Assembly (NCBI GenBank): GCA_006503535.1
Contig: QYRS01000010.1
Span: 2,170,001 to 2,234,000 of the forward strand
DNA: 64,000 nucleotides
Direction of reading: 5' to 3'
Source of the DNA: Arthrinium phaeospermum
Taxonomy: Eukaryota > Ascomycota > Sordariomycetes > Amphisphaeriales > Apiosporaceae
Shown here: positions 1,816 to 17,192 of the stretch, piece by piece
Layout of the letters: each line of letters begins with the position of its first letter
How positions within the stretch are numbered: position 1 is the first letter of the stretch
Made by a program: the position numbers and the translations under genes
The notes under the pieces: model-generated
Database searches by the model: none
What the model was told of the DNA's origin: nothing
What the model saw: the letters and a program-made list of their open reading frames with translations, nothing else

Positions 1816-2334
1816 TCACGACCTCAAGTCATCCCATTTGCCCTTCTGGTAGGGCGCTGGTTTGAACTCGGACAAAGCAATGAGCCCTGCAACGACCTTG
1901 AGATGATTCGCAGCCACCGATGATGACTGGGCGGTGGTAGCCGACGTTGCCAGTGGGTCGTGGCCGCCAGTGTTGCCGAGGTAGGCACGCTCGAAGTGCT
2001 TGATGCTCCTCCGAGCAACGTGATGTTGGCGCCGTGTCAGCAGCCCAGCCTTGTGCTCCTCTCGAGCCTTGGCCCGACGCTGCACTACCTCCTGGCGGAG
2101 CCGCGGGACGTCAATGACGCCTGCATCGGTGTCGTCATCCGACCGGGACCCGTGAGCGGCCACACGCCTACTAGGCGTGTAGTGGAGCAGATCGCCGTAT
2201 TCCAGTTGGAACCGGGCTTCCTGTAGCTGCGTATACAGCCGCCGCTCGAAATCGGTTCGCTCTTTGTCGTACGGAGTCACGGCTGTGGCCTCGTGCTCCT
2301 CGAGAGTCTTCTTGAACTCTGCCAATGAATCCAT
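1816..2334 (-). CDS. Hypothetical charged protein, 172 aa
   Basis: An open frame runs from an ATG at 2334 to a stop at 1816. The frame stays open further upstream, to a non-ATG codon at 2553, but the segment above 2334 is low-complexity (GATC/GTTC repeats), so 2334 is the likelier start. The protein begins MDSLAEFKKTLEEHE, is rich in Arg, Glu and Asp, and is predicted largely helical (residues 20-120), with an Arg-rich stretch after DDDTDAG. I recognise no domain. It could be a small fungal orphan gene; coding status rests only on the open frame and composition. Confidence 0.4.
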   Translation of the reverse strand: MDSLAEFKKTLEEHEATAVTPYDKERTDFERRLYTQLQEARFQLEYGDLLHYTPSRRVAAHGSRSDDDTDAGVIDVPRLRQEVVQRRAKAREEHKAGLLTRRQHHVARRSIKHFERAYLGNTGGHDPLATSATTAQSSSVAANHLKVVAGLIALSEFKPAPYQKGKWDDLRS

Positions 2335-2779: not shown

Positions 2780-2983
2780 ATCGTATGTGCCCCTACCCAG
2801 CCCCTTTTCTCCGATGCGGTACAGTGCACCAATTGATCTGATTATATACTTAGATCCAGATTCACTACACAAGCGTAAGCTCAGCCAGCTTCGTACTTGG
2901 TTTCCCAGAAGCAGCGGTGGGCATTGTACTGACTTGTGCGCCTTTCAGAACCACCAACCAACCCAACCAAAACCAACTTCACG
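2780..2983 (+). promoter_or_regulatory. Conserved upstream block of micro-exon gene A
   Basis: This block is closely similar to 8699-8902, in front of the second micro-exon gene. Shared elements, in order, are GTGCCCCTACCCAGCCCC, a TATATA-like stretch (near 2844 here, near 8760 there), TACTTGG/CACTTGG followed by TTTCCCAGAAGC, ACTGACTTGTGCGCCTTTCAG, and CCAACCCAACCAAAACC just before the ATG. The ACTGAC...TTTCAG part looks like the 3' end of an intron in the 5' UTR. Promoter function is inferred from position and from conservation in both copies. Confidence 0.55.
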
Positions 2984-3995
2984 ATGGTAATATTGACTCC
3001 CTGATCGATCTGGTCCCTAGTAATTGAACTGTTGCTAAGCATTATTCACATTAGAACAACAACAACAATGTACGTACCTTCCGAATCTAGTTCCATCGCA
3101 CAAGTTTCGCTGCAACTGAACTGACTCCGGGACAGCAGCGCCGCGGTGGCAACGTGAGTTATCACCAATGGCCGCAAAGGCACAGTGCTCTCGAGCATAT
3201 ATTACCTTATACTAACCTTCCCAAAGAACCCCAGGCCAATGACCAAGGCCGTAAGCAGCCCTTGAGCCCCCAATATACCACACTACTGACAACTCCCTTA
3301 TAGTATGCGGTACTTCAAAAGGAGGTAACAGCTCCACTCCTTGTCTGGATGCCTTACCCGTGCTAACAGCTCATAGCGCGCATTGAACGAGTTGACTGTA
3401 TGTTCGGACCCATCAACAAAGGAGACAATTCGGAGACTGACTCGTCGTACAGTCTCTAATCGAGGAGAAGGCGCGCCTCGAGCAGCGCATGCAGGTACGT
3501 GTCGCAGTAGAGCACCTACCTTTCTATGCCGAGCTTTTCTGCTAATACTAACTCATTCATTAGACCGTGGGAAAGAAAGCCGCTGTTAGTATCACTGAGT
3601 GTCCATGGATTCCCCTTGCTAACTTTCTCGCAAAGCGATGGACCGAGCGCGTGGAGGTAAGTCATCAGCTGTAATGGCTACATACATATGGATTATGCGC
3701 AACTGACATTGCCAATAGGAGTGGGAGAAGCAGGATGTGAGAACACCTCCCAGGCAAATGCTACAGGCCAATCTGCTAACTACATGTATTCAAAGGACCC
3801 GGCTGAGATGGCCGAGGTAAGATTCCCGATATCTTCCTTCCATGGATGTATAACCAATGCTAACTATTGACAGAAATACGTCAACGAACTGCTGGTACGT
3901 CTCCACTGTGCCTGACATATGCTGTTAATCTAACATGCCGATAGAAGAAGCAACTCGACGAGAAGGTCGCAGTGAAGGAGGAGAAGGAGGATTGA
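2984..3995 (+). CDS. Micro-exon gene A: 13 exons for a 98-aa heptad protein
   Basis: No long ORF exists here, but a chain of consensus introns (GTAAGT/GTACGT-like donors, CTAAC/CTGAC branch points, YAG acceptors; 50-73 nt) yields one continuous frame. Exons: 2984-2986 (ATG alone), 3055-3069, 3136-3153, 3227-3250, 3304-3324, 3377-3397, 3453-3494, 3564-3584, 3636-3656, 3719-3736, 3796-3816, 3874-3894, 3945-3995. Every exon is a multiple of three and every intron is phase 0, with 297 nt coding against 715 nt of intron. Exons of 21 nt encode seven residues (YAVLQKE, RALNELT, RWTERVE, KYVNELL) and the 42-nt exon encodes two heptads; together they form a charged amphipathic helix, probably coiled coil. 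The N-terminus is Asn/Arg/Gly-rich and the tail is KVAVKEEKED. Two related copies in the window conserve the splice sites. No known family recognised; function unknown. Confidence 0.75.
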
Positions 3996-4280: not shown

Positions 4281-4456
4281 GTATAGGATGTTGATCTAAC
4301 ATGCATATAGAAGAAGCAAGGCAGCGAAGCAGCAAGGCCGTCGACAAGCCGGCCGAGAAGACCACCAAGGAGGCCCTTGACGAGGCCCCCGAGGAGGGTG
4401 GCGGGGAACAGGGAAATGCCAATCAAATGCAATTAGTCAGGAATAAGGATGATTAA
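4281..4456 (+). pseudogene. Duplicated last intron and exon of micro-exon gene A
   Basis: GTATAGG...TTGATCTAACATGCATATAG followed by AAGAAGCAAG mirrors the last intron and exon of gene A (TTAATCTAACATGCCGATAG then AAGAAGCAAC). Downstream UTR-like sequence is also duplicated. After the shared start, one frame encodes an acidic, Lys/Glu/Gly-rich tail (KAVDKPAEKTTKEALDE...) ending at 4454-4456, so the original tail may have been longer and then frameshifted. No upstream exons accompany it; it appears to be a fragment. Confidence 0.55.
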
Positions 4457-5075
4457 ACGACGGATAGAAAATAATTACTGCTGGAGCAATGCCATCACGA
4501 TGAAACCACGCGCAAATACTTCCCACCTTGGTCCCGTGGTCCGTCTTCGCCCGCGTGAATGTCAACTGTCTTCATGACGTCCAGCATCGAGTGTCGAATC
4601 GCGTTGGAAATCCGCTGCGTGGCAAAGAATAGATACTAGGCAACACTCGACAGCTTTTACTTAGCCAGACAGTCCTTCAGAGGTAGCAAGAGATCTGCTA
4701 GTTTGAATCCAGCCACGTGCGCATGTAATCCAGTCCTCGAGTCCAAAGTCATTTTGTCGCGCGGGATGATAGAGAGTTCCGCGCTTATCTCGGGCTGATC
4801 AATCACTCCGGTCGCTAGAGGCAGTGTATGGAAATTGTACCACCTGAGCATGTAAACGAATGGCGGGCGGTCGGGGGGTCCCGAACGCCGATCTTACCCT
4901 TGGCACCGTCGCCATAAGAACTTCTTGTCTGCTCTCTGACGGAGGGAATACAGTCTTGGAGACCTTTTCGATGACCAAAACCGGTTCTCTCTTCGTGAAT
5001 AACCATCAGGTTCCTGAAAGACCGGCCATTATCTCTGTTGACACGTAATACGCCCCAACGAGGACGCAGAGAAGC
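4457..5075. other. Intergenic with one weak minus-strand frame
   Basis: A 64-codon frame on the minus strand (4851-4657, beginning MLRWYNFHTLPLATG) looks protein-like in composition but has no recognised domain and no visible second exon. It may be a relic of a gene lost from the neighbouring biosynthetic remnant. Nothing else stands out. Confidence 0.35.
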
Positions 5076-5986: not shown

Positions 5987-7079
5987 GTGGCGTCTTTCGA
6001 GAGTCTCACTAGGACCATGAATATATCGAGTTATCCGCGAGGTATCGATTCGCTCGTGGGCATGGAGTTGGCTGGCGATATAAACACCGCATTCGATTGC
6101 CACGGCCCCAGCGAGGCCGCGGTAGTGGCCGTGACATGTGGGGACCTCGTTCAGTGCGTGCAGCGAGAGCTCGGCATCGATACCGGGAACAGCTCGGGGA
6201 CTGATGCATCATGAGTCTAACTTCTCGGTGTCGACGGCAGGGACTTCAGACTCGTCTAGCTCTGATGTCTTACTGGCTGCGACGTCGACTAATGGTGAGA
6301 AGCCTTCCCAGCTGCCTCATATCAATGGTCATGGCCACGCCGAGCACAATACCTCTGTAGAAGGTACGGGCGGTGTTATCAGCTTGAATGACCAGAACGG
6401 CGACCAGAATGCAGGGGTCACCCACCCCCTCCGACTTCCACTCTCTACCGTTTTCGACACGTTCGCCGAGATCAAGGCTCAGACGGATAGTTTTATACGG
6501 CATTTCAACTGTGATCGATACATCGAGAAAGTCATGCCAGCGCAAACAAGGATGTACATTGCGCTAACTTTGTGAGCCTTCCAACAGCTTGGGTGCGACC
6601 TGTCGACGCTGAGCCCTGGGCAGAAACTGAATCGAATCGATCATACCTTGTCAATGCAGAGGCTGGCAGATTACCTTTACTATATGCTGGAGAAAGAGGC
6701 CAGGCTGATTGAGAGACACAACGGCCACGTTCGTCGAACGTCGGTGCCGACTACCCTCGCATCCAGTGCCGACTACCCTCGCATCCAGTGCCGACTACCC
6801 TCGCATCCAGTGCCGACTACCCTCGCATCCAGTGCCGACTACCCTCGCATCCAGTGCCGACTACCCTCGCATCCAGTGCCGACATATTGGAGCTGCTACT
6901 TAGGCAATCTCCCGACCATCACTTCCCCTACAAGCTGACTCACTTCACTGGATCGAGCCTGCAGTAGATATTTTCAGTCGACATAGACGGCACACAGGCC
7001 ATCTTCGGCTCGGACGAGGGTTGTACGCTGGCGTCTGGTATGTACGGAGACTCTCCACTCAACCTAATCTCATACAAAT
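5987..7079 (+). pseudogene. Relic of a non-reducing polyketide synthase (ACP to C-methyltransferase part)
   Basis: Residues GIDSLVGMELAGDI near 6047-6088 match the acyl-carrier phosphopantetheine site (GxDSL). A Ser/Thr-rich linker follows, then FDTFAEIKAQTDSF and YIEKVMPAQTRMYIALTL, then AFQQLGCDLSTLSPGQKL and IFGSDEGCTLASGMYGDS. This is the order seen at the start of the C-methyltransferase domain of citrinin-type non-reducing PKSs. The reading frame is broken: a frame change near 6200 between ACP and linker, TGA at 6573-6575, a 22-bp repeat expansion at 6747-6883 that shifts frame, and TAG at 6965-6967. KS, AT, PT and the catalytic methyltransferase core are absent. It is a fragment of a once larger gene. 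Confidence 0.75.
6747..6883 (+). repeat. 22-bp minisatellite, six copies
   Basis: Units beginning CCGACTACCC start at 6747, 6769, 6791, 6813, 6835 and 6857, with a partial seventh at 6879. A single unit would encode a plausible linker of the PKS methyltransferase region, so five extra copies (110 bp, not a multiple of three) look like an insertion by slippage within the relic. Confidence 0.9.
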
Positions 7080-7207
7080 AGAAACATACGCGAAGCTCCT
7101 TGACCAGTTGATATAAGACCATTGGCCACAGAGGCTTTGAGAGCAGATGTCGGGACTCGTACCTCGGCAACTTTGGCCGGGTCTCAAGATGCGCGGGTCA
7201 TACTAAC

Positions 7208-7673
7208 GGCGGCGGTCTTTCCGGCCTCCTAAAAAGTGAGTCAGTACCAACGGAAGAGCTCATTGTAGATAGCTAGATAGGTGCTCGAATGCAACACATA
7301 CGTCCAGGCGCTTTTCGACAAGCGCCGCCTCCTCGGCGAGGCGCTTTCTCTCTTCGAACAATGACTATATCTTCAATTAGTGTTCCAAACTGCTTCTTTG
7401 CTGCTGGAATCCGAGCATACGGTGACCCGGGCCATCGCTTGCTGTAAGCTGTTAGCACGGCTAAAGTATTTAGACGAGGAATCAAACTAATTACCTCCTT
7501 CTTCATCACGGCGAACTGCGTTGTCGTTAGTAGTGTAGTGAAATGGGGCTTCAAGAAGATGCTTACCGCACGTGTGCCTGCCTTTGGCGCCTGGGGGAAA
7601 AGTTACAATGTCAGTATAATGCCAGGAGCACCACGGTACGAGCGTAGGAAACATGACATACGGCAGTCTTGGT
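7208..7673 (-). pseudogene. Micro-exon gene B: inverted, truncated copy
   Basis: On the minus strand five exons parallel genes A and C: 7590-7567 (APKAGTRA), 7515-7495 (FAVMKKE), 7441-7421 (QAMARVT), 7364-7302 (63 nt, three heptads starting SLFEERK) and 7228-7208 (EAGKTAA). A 12-nt exon at 7673-7662 is possible. Introns have GTAAGC, GTAATT, GTATGC and GTATGT donors and CTAAC or CTGAC branch points. All accepted exons are multiples of three with phase-0 introns. After EAGKTAA the donor is GTTAGT, as in gene A, but the following exons cannot be recovered and the sequence abuts the PKS relic. A convincing 5' end with its ATG was not found. Confidence 0.65.
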
Positions 7674-8698
7674 CTCACTGCCCAATGCGGCTTCGGATCG
7701 CCTGTATACAGGCCTTGCTTGGTACCACCCCCAACAGTCGTTGTTGAGCAATTGCCGAGTGGTGGCGCTGTCTTGTGATCAGCTTGAATGCAGTAGAAGC
7801 TGTGCGACGTAACAGTACTCGTAAGATGCGTGCGTTGGGTTGTGAGGGTGACGAGGAAGGCGTGAATGACTGCTACACAGTGTCCAAATATGGTCTGTGT
7901 CGACTTGGCACGCTCGATGATATCTGTTGGCTCCGTGCATATTCGAAGTGCATTGAATGGGGGACAAGAAAAAGATTTGTATAAACTCGAGAAGTTAGAT
8001 TGGAGATGAGGAATTTTCAAGTGGTTGCCATGATGTCGTGTGGACCGGCAAGTATTATTTCCCCACGGCTGGCGACTGCGAGCATCCCCAGCCCACAGTG
8101 AGGTTCAGGTGAGAGAAAGGCAGTAGACGAATCCCACATGCCTAATTTCATCAATTGAAACACATACCTGACTGATGCACTTGCATTGGTAGAGGTAGGT
8201 ACATGCAATTTAGGCACCTAAAGCCGCAAGGGAAAATGAGTAAGGTACGACTTCAACGGCGGCCTAGAACGTCCCGCTACGCTGGGCCATTTGAAGGATT
8301 TAAGTAAGTGAAAGGTGTGCCTTCCTTCATACTAAACGGCAAACATTGTGGGGTTTCTCGCAGTCGACATTGCTAGGCTCCATACACCATGGATCCAATG
8401 CCAAACAATTGCAAGTTACCTCTGCCCTAAATTCTCAAGACCTCGTTCTCGCTCTCCGTCAGGCAATGCCCTTCAATATATGTAATTACCCACCGAAACA
8501 GCAATCATCATTCTCGAGCGTGCCAGGTCAACCGATGCGGTATCTAACCACAAGACAGTCAGTCATCTACGACCCACCTTCTTCTGGAATCGATGCATTC
8601 TCCAAGGTGACAGTCCCTCTGGGAGTCGTTTGGGTCTGTCAGGACTACTTGACATCCTGGGTGAATGAAAGAAACGCCATCTTTGTCCCTCCCACCAT
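7674..8698. other. Region around micro-exon copies B and C, no complete gene
   Basis: Bases 7674-7760 (minus strand) share patches with intron 4 of gene C (GGCAATTGCTCAACAA and the segment after it), so they belong to the same ancestral gene. A plus-strand frame at 8346-8750 has no recognisable product and overlaps the conserved upstream block of gene C. Confidence 0.45.
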
Positions 8699-8902
8699 CG
8701 TATGTGCCCCTACCCAGCCCCTTGTCTCTAGATGCCGTGCAGTGAACTAATTGACTTCATTATATATAGAGAACCAAATCAATCAGAAACCGTCAGTTCA
8801 GCCCATTTCGCACTTGGTTTCCCAGAAGCCGCGGCATGGCCATTGTACTGACTTGTGCGCCTTTCAGACTCACACACCAACCCAACCAAAACCAACTTCA
8901 CC
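8699..8902 (+). promoter_or_regulatory. Conserved upstream block of micro-exon gene C
   Basis: This is the counterpart of 2780-2983: the same GTGCCCCTACCCAGCCCC element, TATATATA near 8760, TTTCCCAGAAGC, ACTGACTTGTGCGCCTTTCAG and CCAACCCAACCAAAACC just before the ATG. Preservation in both + copies supports a promoter plus spliced 5' UTR. Confidence 0.55.
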
Positions 8903-10373
8903 ATGGTAATAAGCCCCTGATCAAGCTTGCTCTGGATTTAAGAACTATTGCTAAGCATATACTTTACAGACATCCAACAACAAGAACGTGAGCATCTTCC
9001 CCATCAGTTCCCATCGCATAAGTCTGCAGCTAAACTGACTCCGAGACAGCAGAATCGCGGACGCGTAAGTGATCACCAAAAGCCATTTTGGCCCCTTACC
9101 CTCAAGTATATGCAGTCGCTAACACAATGGCTGCAGCAGAACTCATCTGCTCCAGTGAGTACAATTCGCCGCTCCTTTGATGGACCACATGCAGGGCTAG
9201 GAAGCATTGTGGCTTCTGGGAGACAAAAGCTCTTCGCGACTATCTCTGCTAGTCCACGTGAGCTCGTGCATCGCTCTCCAATGGCGACTACAGGGGTATT
9301 ACGGTTTCCACCTGTTCGACTTGCAATACCTTGCAGAGGATTCGAAGCCTCTGGTCTTGGCTCGGCAATTGCTCAACAAAGGCTGATGTGGGTGATACCA
9401 CTCAGGAGCTGTCTACAGTAGCGATCCGATGCCGTCTGAAGGCTGATGTGGGTGATACCACGGAGGATGTGTCTACAGTAGCGACCCGAAGCCGAGTTGG
9501 GTGACGAGAGCAAGACCAGCATGGTTCCTACCTATCAAGATTGCTTCTCAACAGTCCCGAAGCCTCTTACCCCTAGTCTACCAGCCACCTTATGAGGGCG
9601 GACGACTTGCCATTCGCAAGCTATTACGAGATACTAACAGAATACAGCCACCTCCGAAGCGAAAGGTGAGTTTGCATCTTCCAATTCATATGTTATTGCC
9701 AGACTGACGAAGCGAATAGGCCGAGGTAGATTCTCCTCATGTTCTAGGTCGTTGGCTTCAGCTAACATTCAAGTGTCCAGGATCAGGGCGCACAGCCCAA
9801 GAAGGACCCCGTAAGCCACGTTTCCTGCGCTCGCAATGTAACCCTCCTGACTTTATACTAACAATGAATTGTTCCCAAGGGCCCACTCCCAGGCACCAAG
9901 GCTGTAAGCAATTTCTTGAAGTCCCATTTGACTATACTACTAACGAATCTGTAGTTTGCTATTAAGGAGAAGGAGGTATTTTGATTCCTTGTCTAGACGT
10001 TTTTCCCGTGCTAATGGTTTACAGAAAGCGATGGCCGAGTTGGCTGTATGCTCAAATCCATCAAAAAGGAGAAGTCCGGATTACTGATTTATTATACAGT
10101 CTCTGGTCGAAGAAAAGGCGCGCCTCGAGCGCCAGATCGAGGTATGATGCTGACTCTTGTTCTCGCGAATAAATGGACCGAGCGCGTGGAGGTAAGCAAT
10201 TGACTTTGATAGCTACCTACATGGTATGGATCATGCACAGCTGACATAGTCGATAGGAGTTCGAGAAGAGGAACGTGAGATCCAATTCTTGTCCCAAAGC
10301 TATGCGTCAATTTGCCAACCACATGGATTTGCAGGACCCGGTAAAGAAGGAAGACATTGATTATGAATATTAG
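8903..10373 (+). CDS. Micro-exon gene C: 13 exons for an 89-aa protein
   Basis: Exons by splice signals and comparison with gene A: 8903-8905 (ATG alone), 8970-8987, 9050-9064, 9140-9154, 9648-9665, 9720-9725 (6 nt, Ala-Glu), 9781-9810, 9880-9903, 9955-9975, 10025-10045, 10100-10141, 10257-10274, 10335-10373. All are multiples of three with phase-0 introns. Products such as FAIKEKE, KAMAELA and SLVEEKARLERQIE match gene A units. Relative to A, the region of A's exons 8 and 9 has decayed: the sequence TGGACCGAGCGCGTGGAG plus donor remains at about 10172-10190, but its AG acceptor is gone and it falls inside an intron. Intron 4 is unusually long (9155-9647) and may hide further small exons. Function unknown; predicted basic N-terminus and helical body. 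Confidence 0.65.
9379..9498 (+). repeat. 60-bp direct duplication inside intron 4 of gene C
   Basis: Two units of exactly 60 bp (9379-9438, 9439-9498) share AAGGCTGATGTGGGTGATAC and CTACAGTAGCGA with substitutions elsewhere. Read through, each would encode about 20 residues (KADVGDTT...), but the frame ends at a stop soon after. Copy B has one diverged unit on the opposite strand. Confidence 0.8.
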
Positions 10374-10709: not shown

Positions 10710-11510
10710 CTAGTACCACTCCTGTCCCCGAGCCTCACGCCCTGCCTTGGCCGGCCGATAAGCCCCTGCCTTGGCCGTTCCGAGACCCTCCCGCACCAGC
10801 GCGACCAGAAACTGCACACCCACGCCCACGCCGTCCACCACCATGACCTGCCTCTCCGCCTCCGTCCCCAGCGCCTCCTCGCAGGCCTCCCGGACGCCCG
10901 TCATGCCCGCGCACCCCAGGCACACCGCGTCGGCCCCGCGCTCCTCGACCAGCCGCCTGGCCGCACCCACGACCCCTGCGCGCACCTCCTCCTCGGGCCG
11001 GCTCTCGAGGCCGAGGACGGAGATCCGCGACGCCGCGCACCCGGCCGAGTAGTGCGCGAAGCCGTACTCGGCGATGGCCAGCTCGTGGATGACGGCGGAG
11101 CGCTCGCTCGTCGTGACGATGCCGAGGCGGCTGCCGCACATGCGCGACGCGTAGAGGGCCGACTCCATGATGCCCAGGACCGGCTGCCCCGCGGTGACCT
11201 CCTCGCGCAGGGCGTCGATGAGGGGATGGCGGCTGAAGCAGCAGACGAGGAAGGCGTCGAAGCGGGCCTGGATCGGCACGACGGCGCGCAGGCACGCGGC
11301 CGCCGAGAGGACGCCGTCGGCGCGGCCCTCGATGGCGCTCGGGGCCGGGCGCGGCGCGGTGAGGCCGTGCACCGTGACGCCGGTGGGGAGGCGGCCGGCG
11401 AGGGTTTGGAGGCAGTTGGCGGTCATGTGGGGGGAGGAGTTGGGGTTGATGAGGAGGATGGAGATGGGGGCGGCGTTGTGGCCGGTTACTGATGGGAGCG
11501 GACTGTCCAT
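10710..11510 (-). CDS. Asp/Glu/hydantoin racemase family protein (DCG1-like), 266 aa
   Basis: An intronless frame with ATG at 11510. ISILLINPNSSPHMT near residues 16-30 matches the N-terminal 'NPNSS..MT' motif of the hydantoin racemase/DCG1 family (Pfam Asp_Glu_race). FDAFLVCCFSRHPL carries the first catalytic-type Cys region, and ADAVCLGCAGMTG near residue 195 carries the second Cys (GCAGM). The length is typical of the fold. Known members racemise hydantoins or related compounds; yeast DCG1 is linked to allantoin regulation without a proven reaction. Cytosolic, no signal peptide. The C-terminal tail after GLGTAKAG is less conserved. Substrate cannot be assigned from sequence. Confidence 0.8.
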   Translation of the reverse strand: MDSPLPSVTGHNAAPISILLINPNSSPHMTANCLQTLAGRLPTGVTVHGLTAPRPAPSAIEGRADGVLSAAACLRAVVPIQARFDAFLVCCFSRHPLIDALREEVTAGQPVLGIMESALYASRMCGSRLGIVTTSERSAVIHELAIAEYGFAHYSAGCAASRISVLGLESRPEEEVRAGVVGAARRLVEERGADAVCLGCAGMTGVREACEEALGTEAERQVMVVDGVGVGVQFLVALVREGLGTAKAGAYRPAKAGREARGQEWY

Positions 11511-11918
11511 TTTCCGAAAACGCTCTTTGGGTCTCCTTTCCTTGGTCGTACCTCAGATGTGTAATATGTAGCAGCCATAAAAGTAATGTAACCCACAGCG
11601 TATGAAAGTAAACCAAAGTCGTTATCATGGCTGGGCATGTCTATTCTTTACTCGAGGATGGGATCCCCCGCTTACCAAATTTGGCCCCCAAGACAGTAGG
11701 CCAGATACTGCTGACGGTTAAAATTGGAGCATGTAGGCAGCCTACAGGTCCATAGGCTGACAGAGACTCGAAAGATAACGCCCACCCCCTCTCCATTTCA
11801 CCACAACCTCCACCACATTCCTTCTCCCGGATTAGATCGACGTCCCATCACGATGACCTAGTCCAACCTCGTCTTTTGAAGAGGGAAAGGGCCACTATAC
11901 TGCTCTAAGCGAGCTCTT
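11511..11918. other. Divergent intergenic region
   Basis: Lies between the racemase-like gene (minus) and the STAND/ankyrin gene (plus). It should hold both promoters; I see pyrimidine-rich stretches (about 11785-11850) but no clear element. Confidence 0.5.
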
Positions 11919-14900
11919 ATGGCAGATCCCTTATCCGTGGCCGGGCTGGCTGCCGGGTTGGTGTCACTGAGCCTTCAAGTTACTTCCGGGATTACCGAGT
12001 ATCTCGATGCACTAAAATGTCGGGCAGAAGAACTGGACTCCGTCCGGAAACACAACGAATCTCTTCGCGCATCCATTATCGTCATTCAATCCTCAGTGAC
12101 CAAAGCGCAGCCACATCACCAGGCATCGTCGCAAATTGTTATCGACGCCATCAAGTATTGCGAATGCGAGATCAAGTCTCTCGAAGATCTTGTGGCAGAA
12201 CTCACGGGATATGACTCGGGTACTTGGCGGCAGCGGGTGCAGCTCAAGGGCAAAAAACTGCGATATATGTTTGATCGGCCTAAAGTTCAACATCTTACCG
12301 ACCGACTGGCACAAGCAAACAGGACAGTCGGCACGGCGCTGCAAGTCCTAGGAATGTAAGATTGCCCCCGCTCCCCGCTTCCCTCACCCCAGTCACTCCC
12401 CGAAAGATAAGAGCTAAATACCAGAGCAGCGATGTGACACAATCAACTTTCGACAGGCTGGCAGGTATCGAAACCATTTCTCGTGATATTTCCACCAATT
12501 TGCTAGCCACGCGATCGGAAGTGGTTATATCTTCGCGTCAGCAACAAACCCAACTGAAACACCTGACCGGACAGAATGCCAGACAAGACCAACAAATACA
12601 AGATATCGCGCATACGTTGCAAGGACTAGCTCGACACCTCGGTATAAATGACGACATTGGGCTGCGACGGCCCGAAACGCAGGAACGGACGTTCCATCGT
12701 CTTCTGGAAAAGCCGTCGAAGACGAGGGAAATCTGCGATGATCTTGGCGGGCGGGATAAGTGGCGAGCACCACCTGGCCCGGCATCAGGAGCGCAGCTGG
12801 CCCGAGCAACATCCCCTGGAGATTCAAGCATCTATCCCATCTGCATCTGCAACAAGACCAAGCATCGCACCAGTTCCCTTTCCGTGAAAACAACCGGCCC
12901 ATTCGTTTGGCGCAACGAGAAGATGCATCACGGACATTGGCCCTCCTGCCCACTTGCTGGAATTGTGGCAACTGGCGAGCAACGCAGAGTACTCGGCGTG
13001 AGATACAACGGACTAGCCTGGATTTTGAAATCTGCCGTCGAAGTCTCTTTCGCGTCTAGCCACGGGGCCGGTGGATGGAGCTTATGTCCGCATATAAGCT
13101 TCCGTCCCACCGTTGATGAGCGCATTGATCCCGTCTTCCGTATATTGGGACTATTCAAGGTGGTAGCTTCGGCTCTTTTGCACGAAAAAGAGCAAGGAAT
13201 TTGCACAAAAGGGCGGGTGGAGTTTTTCGCGCAATGCCAGACTCGAATATTCCAGTTATTCCGTGAGAAAAGGTCAACAAACTTGGCAACAAACTCAAAG
13301 AATCAAAGCATGGCGCATATCCTCGCCGACGCTACATATATTTTCCGAATGAATCAAGTAAGTAGCTTTTCCTCGCTTGCTCTACGCGCCCTGCATGCGT
13401 TGAACAAACCTCTAATTTATACTTTTAGTATCTGCGTAACTCGACCTGCACTGGGCCAGACGATGACTTTTTGGGGATTTGGCAAGTTCTCATTTCTGTT
13501 GGGGTCCCAGCGAATACCTACGACGTGGAGGGTGAGTTTGACCACCAAATATTGGACGAATCAAGCTTCGTTTCTGTAACCGGCGAAGGCCAGCTTCATT
13601 GACGCGCCGTCTGACTCTTCAACAGGAAGGTCGCCCCTTGGTATACTGTTGGGGTCGCCCAATTTCGAATATCCGGAAAGGAGCCTGGTCTTGCAAGCGG
13701 ATACAGAACATGGCCCTGCTCCGCCTGGTTCTTGGGCGGAATGGAACGACCACAAACTTATAGAGCTCATGGACCATATTCCAAGTCTTCCCCAAAGTAA
13801 GGCCCTTTGTCATTGTTTACTATTGAATTGCAGCTGATCTGTCTTTAGGGTTCGAATGCGGGCCCTTGAGTCTTGCCGTAATCTCGGGTGATTTGGAACA
13901 GGTAACTGATCTACTTGACCGATTTCCAAAAGCCCTCAACGAACGAAACCTCTTGGGCCATACGCCATTCCATTTGGCTGCGAACAAACCAGATTCTCTA
14001 ACCATATTAGCTAAAGCCACACCCAGGTCTAGCGAGATCCTTAATCTACGAGACAACTATTCACGGACACCCCTCGATTTGGCAATGTCATTAAGCGGAG
14101 GAATTTGCCGCAGCAGAAACTTCTATCGAAAATGCCGCGGATGCGGATGTGCCAGAAGCGTTGCAGTCCTGTTGAAGGCTGACTGTGCGGTTCCCCAGCC
14201 AGACCTGGGTTTCTTACATTGCAGTATCCTCCGGACGTCATCGAACCGAGCTGTTAGAAGATACGCTCGTCATATGGCGGATCGCCGTTCACGTCTCAGA
14301 CAACTTGGCACGGACCACAGTTCGATTCTTGCATCTGAAGGTTTTGTGGTCGATACTGCCGAAATGCTCGATAACCGTGCAGAAGAGATGAGTAGAATCT
14401 TGATCAAGCACAACATACACATACCCAATCCATTGAGATTACTCCGAAGTGAGATTCCATATTACAACGGGTCGATTTACCAAAGCCTGAGAAGGCCGTG
14501 GCAAGCCGACTTATTCTGGCGCTTATTGTTTCGAGACCTGAATTCCGCTAATCTCGAATGGAAATCGCCACCCTTAATAACGGCTTTCACTGGTACCATT
14601 TCGTCCCTTGACTACATAGAATGGTTACTGGAACATGGTGCAGATCCTTTCCAGCCGTTTCAAACACAGAAGATTTGCAAAGGACGATCGCGGGCCACTG
14701 ATGAGGCTGAGAGAACATGCGCCCATGCAATGATGTTCCGAATTGGCGACACGATAAGATTCGAACGTTGGGACACGGAGAAAGCCGATATAGAATACCT
14801 AAAAGGACTGCAGGCTCTGAATACCCGTTTCCTTCACTTAGGACTACCTGATGCCTGCGCCTGTGCATGCTCATTCAAGGGCTGCACGCTGCAGGTGTAT

Positions 14901-15491
14901 CAACTCAAGGGTCTTTTGGACTTCCACAGGGGTTGCATCACTCCGAGAAGCCCTCTAGCAGACGGTCTGACAGACCCGGCTCATCTGTCCAGAGAAGTTG
15001 CCCAGTACTATGAGCAATTCGCCATGACGCTCTCCAAGAGCTGCCACAGGGACACCATACGTTTCCTGACCTTCTCGGCGCTGGGTGCTACTCATACTTG
15101 CTGCTTCTTCAACACCTGGGAAAGTTGCTACACAGTCTCTCTGGAGGACATACAGGATGTCCAAGACGAAGAGAAAGCGATCTTGGAGAGACTTGAGCAA
15201 CTGGTATTGCACTTCGAGGCAGAGCTTTTTGCTATTCTCGAAAAATGGCCGGATCGCCCTGAACGAATTGCGGGGTTTTGGATTGGCTTTTGGTTACCAA
15301 AGATGCAGCAGGTATTGCTTGAGGATGATGAGAGCGGATTGTCGGAGGAAGCCAGGCAAAGGGCGGAGGATGCGGGTGTCGTCTGGCATAAGTCGAACTC
15401 TTCATCAAATTCGTCTGCGATTACTGTATATGATAAACGTGTGTGGGGACAAATGTCTAAAATTCTGGATGATATCACATTTGGGAATTAG
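11919..15491 (+). CDS. Fungal STAND N-terminal domain protein with ankyrin-type C-terminus, about 1084 aa
   Basis: Exons 11919-12355, 12457-13357, 13429-13531, 13626-13796 and 13849-15491 join in frame with canonical introns. The N-terminus MADPLSVAGLAAGLVSLSLQ is the hallmark of the fungal N-terminal domain of STAND proteins (PigL_N type), a helical death-fold-like module. The following region is helical and Gln-rich. The last exon carries ankyrin-like repeats (LSLAVISGDLEQVTDLLDR; HTPFHLAANKPDSL; SLDYIEWLLEHGADP) and a Cys-rich patch (CACACSFKGCTL). No NACHT or NB-ARC Walker motifs are visible, so it looks like a receptor-type architecture without the NTPase. Such proteins are thought to act in fungal self/non-self or stress sensing; this role is inference. 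Confidence 0.75.
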
Positions 15492-15570: not shown

Positions 15571-17192
15571 TCACACAGGGATCTTGAACCCTCCCTTCAC
15601 CTGATGAGTAAAGACCTGTCCAGGGTCGACCCTCTGCCTCAACGCCTGCAGCTTCTTGACGCTCTCCTCGCCGTAGCTCCGGATGACCTCCTGCCATGGC
15701 GCCGCGTAGTCAAGGTAGACATACGGATCGTAAACCCCCAGCTCCTTGGAGCGCTTCTCTATATCGCCGATCAGCGTGCGCGCAGCGCCATACACCTGCT
15801 CATCGTGGGCCGCGTCGGCCCACGCGGGCGAGATGAGGAAAAGCCCCAGCGTCTTCCCGACATTGCGCCCCGCCGCCGCCGCCGCCCCCAGCCCCAGGGC
15901 ATTGGTGCGCCCGGCGCCGTTGTGGGCGTTGCAGTACATGGACGGCGGTAGCGGCTCGATGTTGACGGCCCACTTGATGCCCGGCACGTCCCGGACCAGC
16001 GGCACCGAGGCCAGGAAGGCGTCGTGGGCCGCGCGCATCATGGCCTCGGTCGGCTCGAAGCACGTGGGCACCGTCATGTACCGGGCCGCGTGGCGGGGCT
16101 GGAACGCGGTCCCGCTCCGCGCCATCGTCGACATGGTCGCGACGACTGGTGGCGTCGCCATGGCGGGCAGGGCGTCGGGTAGGTCCAGGATGGGCTGGTA
16201 GAGGGCCGGGTTCTCGCCCCGGCCGGCCGGCGGCCGCGTGTACGTCAGCTGGTTCAGGGCGACGGTGGCGCCCAGGGCGCCGACGAAGGCCCAGCCGGTG
16301 AGGAAGGAGGCGTGGGGGTCGTAGGTCTCGGCGGCCATGAGGCGGGCGTAGAGGCGGATTTGGTTGTCGACCTCGGTGAGCGGGTTGAAGGACAGGGATG
16401 ACCACAGCGGGCCCTGCGCAAAGGTCCGGAACGTCAGGCTCGTCACTATGCCCAGGTTGTTCGACCCGCCGCGGAGACCCCACCACAGGTCCGCGTTGTC
16501 GTCCCCCTTCTCCTCACCGCTGGCTACCACCACGGAGCCGTCGGCGAGGACTACCTCGAACCGCGTCACCTGGTCGCACGTCCAGCCCTCGCGCGGGGAG
16601 AAGAAGGATATGCCCCCGCCCAGGGTCAGGCCGGCGACGCCGACCCCGGCGATGCGGCCGCCCGCGACGCTCAGCCCGAGCGGGTCGAGTTGGCCGTAGA
16701 TGGCGTCCCACGTGACCCCGGCGCCCACGGTGATGGTGGACTTGTCGGCGCTGAGCTCGACCGAGTCGAGGCCTCGCAGGTCGACGGTGATGCCGTCAGG
16801 GGCGCTGTTGGCGCCGGCGAACCACGTGTGGCCGGCCCCGCGGACGGCGAAGGGGGTGGGCGAGCCGCCCTCGGGGGAGGGAGAGGTCAGTAGCTTCACG
16901 ACGGAAGAGACGGCGGCGGCGGTCTTCGGGGTTACGAAGCAGGCGGGCTTTATGGATGCGGCCTGGGGGCTGAAGTACGAAGATAGGGATGCGTTATATC
17001 CATCGCTGCCAGGCAAGAAGACATTGTCTGCTCCGAGAAGGGAGATCAAGGCCTGGGACTGAAGGTTTGTGACACGTCATGTTAGTCGGCCGGGTGAATA
17101 CGTTCTTTCGCGGGCTGATTTCAATTTCGATGGCCCATCGGTATCTGCGCCTGGGGTGCACATACTTGGGGAAGGGGTTTATTATCTTCCAT
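15571..17192 (-). CDS. FAD-linked oxidase, berberine-bridge-enzyme type, about 502 aa
   Basis: The main exon is 17052-15571. The long frame lacks an ATG at its 5' end, but a 27-nt exon at 17192-17166 (MEDNKPLPQ) with a GTATGT donor, a CTAAC branch and a CCCAG acceptor joins it in phase 0. RGAGHTW places the covalent-flavin His near residue 84. GGGISFFSPREGWTCDQV is the second FAD-binding block with the usual 'G.CDQV' Cys, and the C-terminal YLDYAAPWQEVIRSYG plus VDPGQVFTHQ is the BBE tail. The enzyme is expected to oxidise small alcohols, sugars or secondary metabolites with O2. No signal peptide is visible with this start. It faces an SDR gene across a 640-bp divergent spacer, which suggests, but does not prove, shared function. 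Confidence 0.85.

Follow-up and report, generated by a model that had tools for sequence, protein, structure and literature searches.

Genes composed of micro-exons have been described in schistosomes and aphids (PMC8293314, PMC9168663). Exons of the schistosome micro-exon genes (MEGs) are reported to be mainly symmetric, at most 36 bp long and removable in frame, and their homologues are reported from that lineage only (PMC8293314). The bicycle genes of aphids likewise contain many micro-exons, with about 17 exons on average and internal exons almost all of phase 2, and they are described as fast-evolving genes whose structure is conserved above their sequence (PMC9168663). In fungi, microexons of 2-10 residues are reported for almost a third of the Phanerochaete chrysosporium P450 genes (PMC1184071), and Trichoderma virens Xlr2 has one regulated microexon, which was introduced in 2024 as the first with a function in a filamentous fungus, prior tests having been made only in fission yeast (PMC11121469). 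Troponin T (TNNT3) combines a single exon phase class and proposed exon shuffling with a heptad repeat domain (PMC2447309). Finally, start-codon phase 0 introns, located directly after the ATG of genes for short lysine-rich proteins without a signal peptide, are described from fungi too (PMC1626468).

Here we analyzed a 64,000-nucleotide stretch of Arthrinium phaeospermum DNA (contig QYRS01000010.1, hereafter the window) containing a locus, copy A, that is made almost wholly of micro-exons, comprising 12 introns in about 1 kb and many exons matched to a protein structural repeat, the heptad of a predicted coiled coil. As in the MEGs, all 13 coding exons are symmetric and 11 of them do not exceed 36 nt; unlike the MEGs, the gene is fungal, its start is not signal peptide-like on inspection, there is no evidence of host exposure, and the predicted product is a coiled coil. 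With the bicycle genes, copy A and its relatives share many micro-exons, a structure better conserved than the sequence, and fast evolution; the difference lies in the introns, all 12 of which are phase 0. Moreover, bicycle proteins carry paired cysteine-tyrosine-cysteine motifs, whereas the joined peptides of copy A and of its paralog copy B are devoid of cysteine. Judged by gene structure, the copy A family resembles both MEGs and bicycle genes and belongs to neither, because one defining feature fails in each case, the lineage in the former and the intron phase in the latter. The P. chrysosporium and T. virens cases, as far as the reports describe them, are single microexons in long ordinary genes, whereas the coding sequence of copy A is nearly all microexons. 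TNNT3 is a vertebrate muscle gene, and in the available parts of its description the heptad domain is assigned to exons other than the shuffled ones, and no correspondence of single heptads to single exons is mentioned. Likewise, the start-codon introns, as described, would account for intron 1 of copy A only. The first-pass annotation of this DNA knew of no described fungal family with such an architecture; among the best matches in the open-access literature we also found no earlier description of heptad exons or of a fungal gene composed of micro-exons, and the statement has to be narrowed insofar as microexons as such have been reported in fungi.

We consider it likely that the locus represents a real, lineage-restricted Apiospora protein-coding family, whose product would be a small intracellular coiled-coil protein encoded largely by heptad exon cassettes, and we think that copy A functions as a gene for such a protein, or did so until recently. 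It is an old question whether exons match units of the protein, and it is directly testable here, in a fungus with duplicates differing by whole units, making the cluster a natural case for studying how exons come to serve as exchangeable modules of proteins.

Exon-intron structure of copy A and its paralogs

Copy A extends on the forward strand from an ATG at 2984 to a TGA ending at 3995 and consists of exons of 3, 15, 18, 24, 21, 21, 42, 21, 21, 18, 21, 21 and 51 nt, separated by GT..AG introns of 50-73 nt each. This arrangement had been proposed in the first-pass annotation, and we found all of it in the sequence: 13 exons of these lengths, each divisible by three, phase-0 introns, 297 nt of coding against 715 nt of intron sequence, and a joined frame without internal stop. 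A branch-point-like motif is located 9-15 nt upstream of the intron end in all 12 introns, reading CTRAC in 11 of them and CTAAG in intron 1. Read as whole heptads for every exon, the accompanying claim was too broad, as it applies to seven of the 13 exons (six of 21 nt, one of 42 nt) and fails for the six of 3, 15, 18, 24, 18 and 51 nt. Of note, four parses fit identical exon lengths, with exon 6 at 3370-3390 or 3377-3397 and exon 7 at 3453-3494 or 3465-3506. Exon 6 reads RALNELT in copy A, KAMAELA in copy B, QAMARVT in copy C and RAINELA in the Apiospora marii protein P0003 introduced below. Because copies B and C and P0003 agree, we selected the second position for exon 6, thereby correcting its earlier placement, and the first for exon 7. 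Skipping of any internal exon of copy A would leave the frame intact, as would retention of intron 8 (51 nt, stop-free). The introns do not behave as introner-like elements, with a best intron-intron score of 20 compared to a null top mean of 18.3 and a null maximum of 29 (mean over all pairs 12.9, null 11.6).

Copy A is followed by copy C on the opposite strand and then by copy B on the strand of A (Table 1). The 5' leaders of A and B are identical at 172 of 205 positions over 2778-2983. In our reading, copy B carries additional 5' exons (15, 18, 6 and 30 nt) in the interval that separates exons 3 and 4 in copy A, has neither exon 8 nor exon 12, retains a relic of exon 9 at 10171-10191 whose acceptor AG has become AT, and ends shortly past exon 11 with a tail resembling the 3' end of copy A. 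All 13 exons of copy B as read are divisible by three, but were chosen with the frame in mind. A frame-blind parse placed two additional exons in 9155-9647, a segment that may hold further exons, and joined exons 7 and 9. In copy C, exons 9-10 are missing and the later reading is broken. The cluster is thus partly decaying, copy C being broken and copy B having lost an acceptor and exons. Splice sites are common to copies A, B and C, and A. marii P0001 repeats the units of exons 4-12.

Table 1. Positions of the three copies and their exons in the window.
Feature	Position	Strand	Reading	Basis
Copy A 5' leader	2783-2948	+	a single intron, or a pair (2783-2859 and 2875-2948) flanking a 15-nt untranslated micro-exon	frame-blind parse
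Copy A exon 1	2984-2986	+	ATG only	parse
Copy A exon 2	3055-3069	+	NNNNN	parse and paralogs
Copy A exon 3	3136-3153	+	QRRGGN	parse and relatives
Copy A exon 4	3227-3250	+	NPRPMTKA	parse and relatives
Copy A exon 5	3304-3324	+	YAVLQKE, heptad	parse and relatives
Copy A exon 6	3377-3397	+	RALNELT, heptad	border fixed via relatives
Copy A exon 7	3453-3494	+	SLIEEKARLEQRMQ, two heptads	parse and relatives
Copy A exon 8	3564-3584	+	TVGKKAA, heptad	parse and A. marii
Copy A exon 9	3636-3656	+	RWTERVE, heptad	parse and A. marii
Copy A exon 10	3719-3736	+	EWEKQD, six residues	matches predicted helix break of P0001
Copy A exon 11	3796-3816	+	DPAEMAE, heptad length	parse and relatives
Copy A exon 12	3874-3894	+	KYVNELL, heptad length	parse and A. 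marii
Copy A exon 13	3945-3995	+	charged tail and stop	parse
Duplicated relic of copy A exon 13 acceptor and 3' end	4283-4525	+		DNA comparison
Copy C, partial and broken	about 7163-7701	-	exons 4 (7567-7590), 5 (7495-7515), 6 (7421-7441) and 8 (7208-7228)	
Copy C upstream exon candidate	7662-7701	-	40 nt	
Copy C exon 7	7302-7364	-	63 nt, three heptads	
Copy C exon 11 relic	7163-7183	-		
Copy B with 5' leader	8695-10373	+	coding 8903-10373, ATG at 8903	
Copy B exons, 5' part	8970-8987, 9050-9064, 9140-9154, 9648-9665, 9720-9725, 9781-9810	+		authors' reading
Copy B exons, 3' part	9880-9903, 9955-9975, 10025-10045, 10100-10141, 10257-10274, 10335-10373	+		authors' reading

DNA searches with the three copies, protein searches with P0001 and P0003 and pattern searches revealed no further copy in the 48.4 Mb genome, strongly diverged copies being invisible to these searches. 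The sole protein match outside the cluster had an E-value of 0.58. A degenerate exon 7 pattern matched exactly at three places, the three copies, and with one mismatch at nine, compared to 11 in the backward control.

Heptad units, predicted helix and relatives in Apiospora marii

A single-sequence protein search with the 98-residue peptide of copy A yielded four candidates, none of them at E ≤10. When the alignment of the three copies was compared with the protein collection, E-values ≤10 were reached, among 313 candidates, only by three hypothetical proteins of A. marii: PG985_000174 (P0001), PG991_015307 (P0002) and PG985_000178 (P0003), the latter two being nearly identical. The collection includes A. 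aurea, A. rasikravindrae and A. arundinis, and family matches were confined to A. marii; this absence elsewhere is weak evidence, because annotation easily misses such genes and the search requires shared five-residue words. Between exon 4 and the beginning of exon 13, P0001 and copy A are identical at 31 of 78 residues (BLASTP E 2e-16, single comparison), and their alignment contains one gap, of exactly seven residues and located inside exon 7. Over exons 5-12, the units of P0001 are 7, 7, 21, 7, 7, 6, 7 and 7 residues long, those of copy A 7, 7, 14, 7, 7, 6, 7 and 7. Over exons 4-8, copy C agrees with P0001 at 46 of 50 residues, and it has the same extra exon 7 heptad. The intron positions assumed for P0001 are those of copy C.

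The A. marii models are themselves irregular. Residues 20-65 of P0001 match a stretch of copy C that spans the intron before exon 4, while P0002 and P0003 include sequence of copy A intron 2, join exon 4 to exon 6 without exon 5 and terminate shortly past exon 7. In our view, the three models resemble prediction errors or else products of retention and skipping, and they are not clean evidence of splicing, because their N-termini appear to read through introns and P0002 and P0003 lack exon 5. The disagreement among these models and their apparent intron read-through suggest that annotation misreads genes of this kind. The only cysteines of P0001, at 30 and 33, fall in its doubtful N-terminus. 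Searching the peptides of copies A, B and C and P0001-P0003 against Pfam gave no match above the curated cut-off; matches below it (such as Herpes_UL14, APG6_N, TAF8_C and DUF6556) were rejected as effects of composition, namely charged helices or Asn runs.

The heptad exons share one hydrophobic register. Across exons 5-9 of copy A, heptad position 2 is hydrophobic in six of six units, position 6 in four and position 3 in three, and the pattern at positions 2 and 6, as originally noted from the sequence, is significant against shuffles (p = 0.00045; exons 11 and 12 lie outside this test). For P0001, the respective counts are seven of seven and five of seven (p 0.0017), and for copy B four of four and two of four, which is marginal (p 0.067). 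Furthermore, in all three cases the hydrophobic moment at 102.9 degrees, which corresponds to an exact heptad, exceeded that at 100 degrees (p 0.001 vs 0.032 for A, 0.019 vs 0.082 for P0001 and 0.053 vs 0.13 for B). A single-sequence AlphaFold2 model of P0001 (mean pLDDT 65.1) predicted helices at residues 64-108 and 112-132, with block pLDDT values of 80-96 over residues 61-110 and low values in the N-terminal 50 residues. The first predicted helix starts at the end of exon 5 and stops with the first residue of exon 10; the predicted break at 109-111 falls into exon 10 (108-113), the sole six-residue exon of that stretch. The structure prediction proposed earlier as a check, made here on P0001, thus returned one long helix over exons 5-9. 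Neither a PDB sequence search nor Foldseek gave a credible match.

On this reading, family members would be proteins of about 90-100 residues with no visible signal peptide and a polar Asn-rich or basic N-terminus, followed by a single long amphipathic helix and, beyond a short break, by another helix, both being predicted. The long helix would be assembled from in-frame exons, mostly one heptad each, and the phase-0 introns would allow these exons to act as cassettes, whose loss, gain or skipping would shift the coil length by a whole heptad while keeping the frame and the coiled-coil register. The role of the helix would presumably lie in self-association or partner binding, and turnover of the copies may alter its length or surface. 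A stronger version, in which selection has made one exon equal one heptad, so that skipping, gain or loss would produce graded coiled-coil lengths from one locus, an exon-level helix ruler, strikes us as rather unlikely.

Several observations agree with the exon-equals-heptad family that had initially been proposed, namely conserved micro-exon borders, a predicted long helix and differences by whole in-frame units. What did not stand is its strict form, as six of the 13 exons are not heptads and the single clean heptad-length change lies within exon 7 rather than comprising a whole exon. These same two points would be expected if the gene were real and the heptad-sized exons a by-product of closely spaced introns in the gene of a helical protein, with no role in length variation. 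Such a by-product, which overlaps with the coiled-coil family we favor in all but the cassette role, is possible though not our preferred account; over exons 5-12, seven of eight units measure 7 or 14 residues in copy A and 7 or 21 in P0001, and the hydrophobic positions hold one register across exons 5-9, both of which argue against it.

By analogy, the locus might also function as a schistosome-type micro-exon gene, in which alternative splicing of symmetric exons would generate many variants, possibly for host interaction. The symmetry of all coding exons and the small size of 11 of the 13 are as reported for MEGs (PMC8293314), and P0002 and P0003 join exons 4 and 6 as skipping of exon 5 would. 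However, the N-terminus is not signal peptide-like on inspection and these two models are unreliable, leaving the analogy doubtful as a functional account, though compatible with the coiled-coil family.

Sequence change between the copies and tests against chance

We then asked how the copies have diverged. Exons of A and B are no more alike than their introns (138/198 vs 296/393 identical positions; Fisher p 0.17, not significant). When the observed changes were placed at random, in the proposed frame and in both shifted frames, synonymous changes exceeded expectation in the proposed frame for A-B (17 vs 11.1, p 0.014; 16 vs 10.1, p 0.011, without the decayed exon 9) and A-C (22 vs 14.3, p 0.003), whereas the B-C excess was not significant (13 vs 10.6, p 0.20). 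Neither shifted frame gave a synonymous excess for any of the three pairs. Nei-Gojobori dN/dS was 0.49 for A-B, 0.17 for A-C, a pair near saturation, and 0.41 for B-C. Between A and B, transitions and transversions number 25 and 35 in exons vs 68 and 29 in introns (p 0.0008). Taken together, these values mark the frame as coding and under constraint, though a loose one. Purifying selection alone would not predict the surplus of exon transversions, and some residues may undergo fast or diversifying change.

The similarity of exon and intron divergence also raises the question of whether the whole cluster consists of decaying duplicates, copy A being the least broken relic that now makes no protein. 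The splice sites and exons missing from C and B and the 3' relic downstream of copy A would be in line with such decay. Yet copy A retains all 12 introns and its frame, the synonymous excess for A-B and A-C is specific to that frame, and the A. marii relative retains the units of exons 4-12, making general decay improbable. Splice signals and comparison between copies establish the exon structure at the level of DNA, and comparison likewise establishes the paralogs, the frame constraint and the whole-unit differences, in keeping with a protein-coding family.

To judge the chain of micro-exons itself, a strict scanner looked, on either strand, for chains in which short, in-frame, stop-free exons link consensus introns. 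The longest chain in the window, with 8 introns, lies at copy A, and the next longest are two 3-intron chains, one in A and one in C. In 60 dinucleotide shuffles of the window, the longest chain had one intron in 28 cases, two in 31 and three in one. The 8-intron chain shares six exons with the first-pass parse and deviates from it twice, with a donor at 3303 where that parse has 3325, and with an acceptor further on, inside exon 10; we do not believe either site. A laxer scanner, which unlike the strict one has no shuffle null, was applied to 165,568 bases of fetched loci, including 120 kb of flanks, and found chains of at least 3 introns only at copy A (L026, 11 introns), copy C (L027, 3) and copy B (L028, 4); none of the nine one-mismatch exon 7 loci (including L032, which was also read) or the 120 kb of flanks contained one.

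In the frame-blind parse at cost 12, 10 of the 11 internal coding exons of copy A were divisible by three, the exception being a 16-nt exon with a 6-nt exon beside it, where alternative sites were picked around exons 4-5. The corresponding counts were 11 of 11 for copy B up to exon 6 and four of four for copy C up to exon 7. Later units (92 and 25 nt in B, 139 nt in C) are not divisible by three, splice sites having been lost or exons deleted there. Raising the cost to 13.5 left intron 1 uncalled in both A and B. Individual fungal splice signals are short, but given the shuffle test, the frame-specific constraint and the independent match in A. marii, a chance array of splice-like signals in non-coding DNA is extremely improbable.

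Neighbourhood of the cluster

Upstream of copy A lie two adjacent tandem arrays (1010-1162 and 1200-1740, with 37-nt and about 47-nt units) and a divergently oriented reading frame of 172 residues (1816-2334, reverse strand) with no Pfam match above the cut-off. A perfect 22-nt tandem repeat of 6.4 copies occupies 6744-6883. The segment 8400-8563, upstream of copy B, is included near the N-terminus of P0003 (84% and 68% matches), and P0003 also has a part that matches 3016-3153 of copy A, copies at the former place having turned over. Within the long intron region of copy B, a 60-nt unit is present twice (9379-9494), is partly common to copy C and could contain further exons. Adjoining copy B on the reverse strand is an Asp/Glu/hydantoin racemase gene (10710-11513), 98% identical to A. 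marii PG985_000179 and 87% identical to its A. aurea counterpart, which places the genome in Apiospora, near A. marii. It is followed by an ankyrin-repeat reading frame (13827-15488, forward strand) and a reading frame with a FAD-binding domain (15574-17076, reverse strand). A search for 5.8S rRNA returned a single partial match above the cut-off plus two weak matches. L024 (G000:C10:2014486-2014634) gave a weak full-length match to 5.8S rRNA below the cut-off and is perhaps a decayed rDNA copy.
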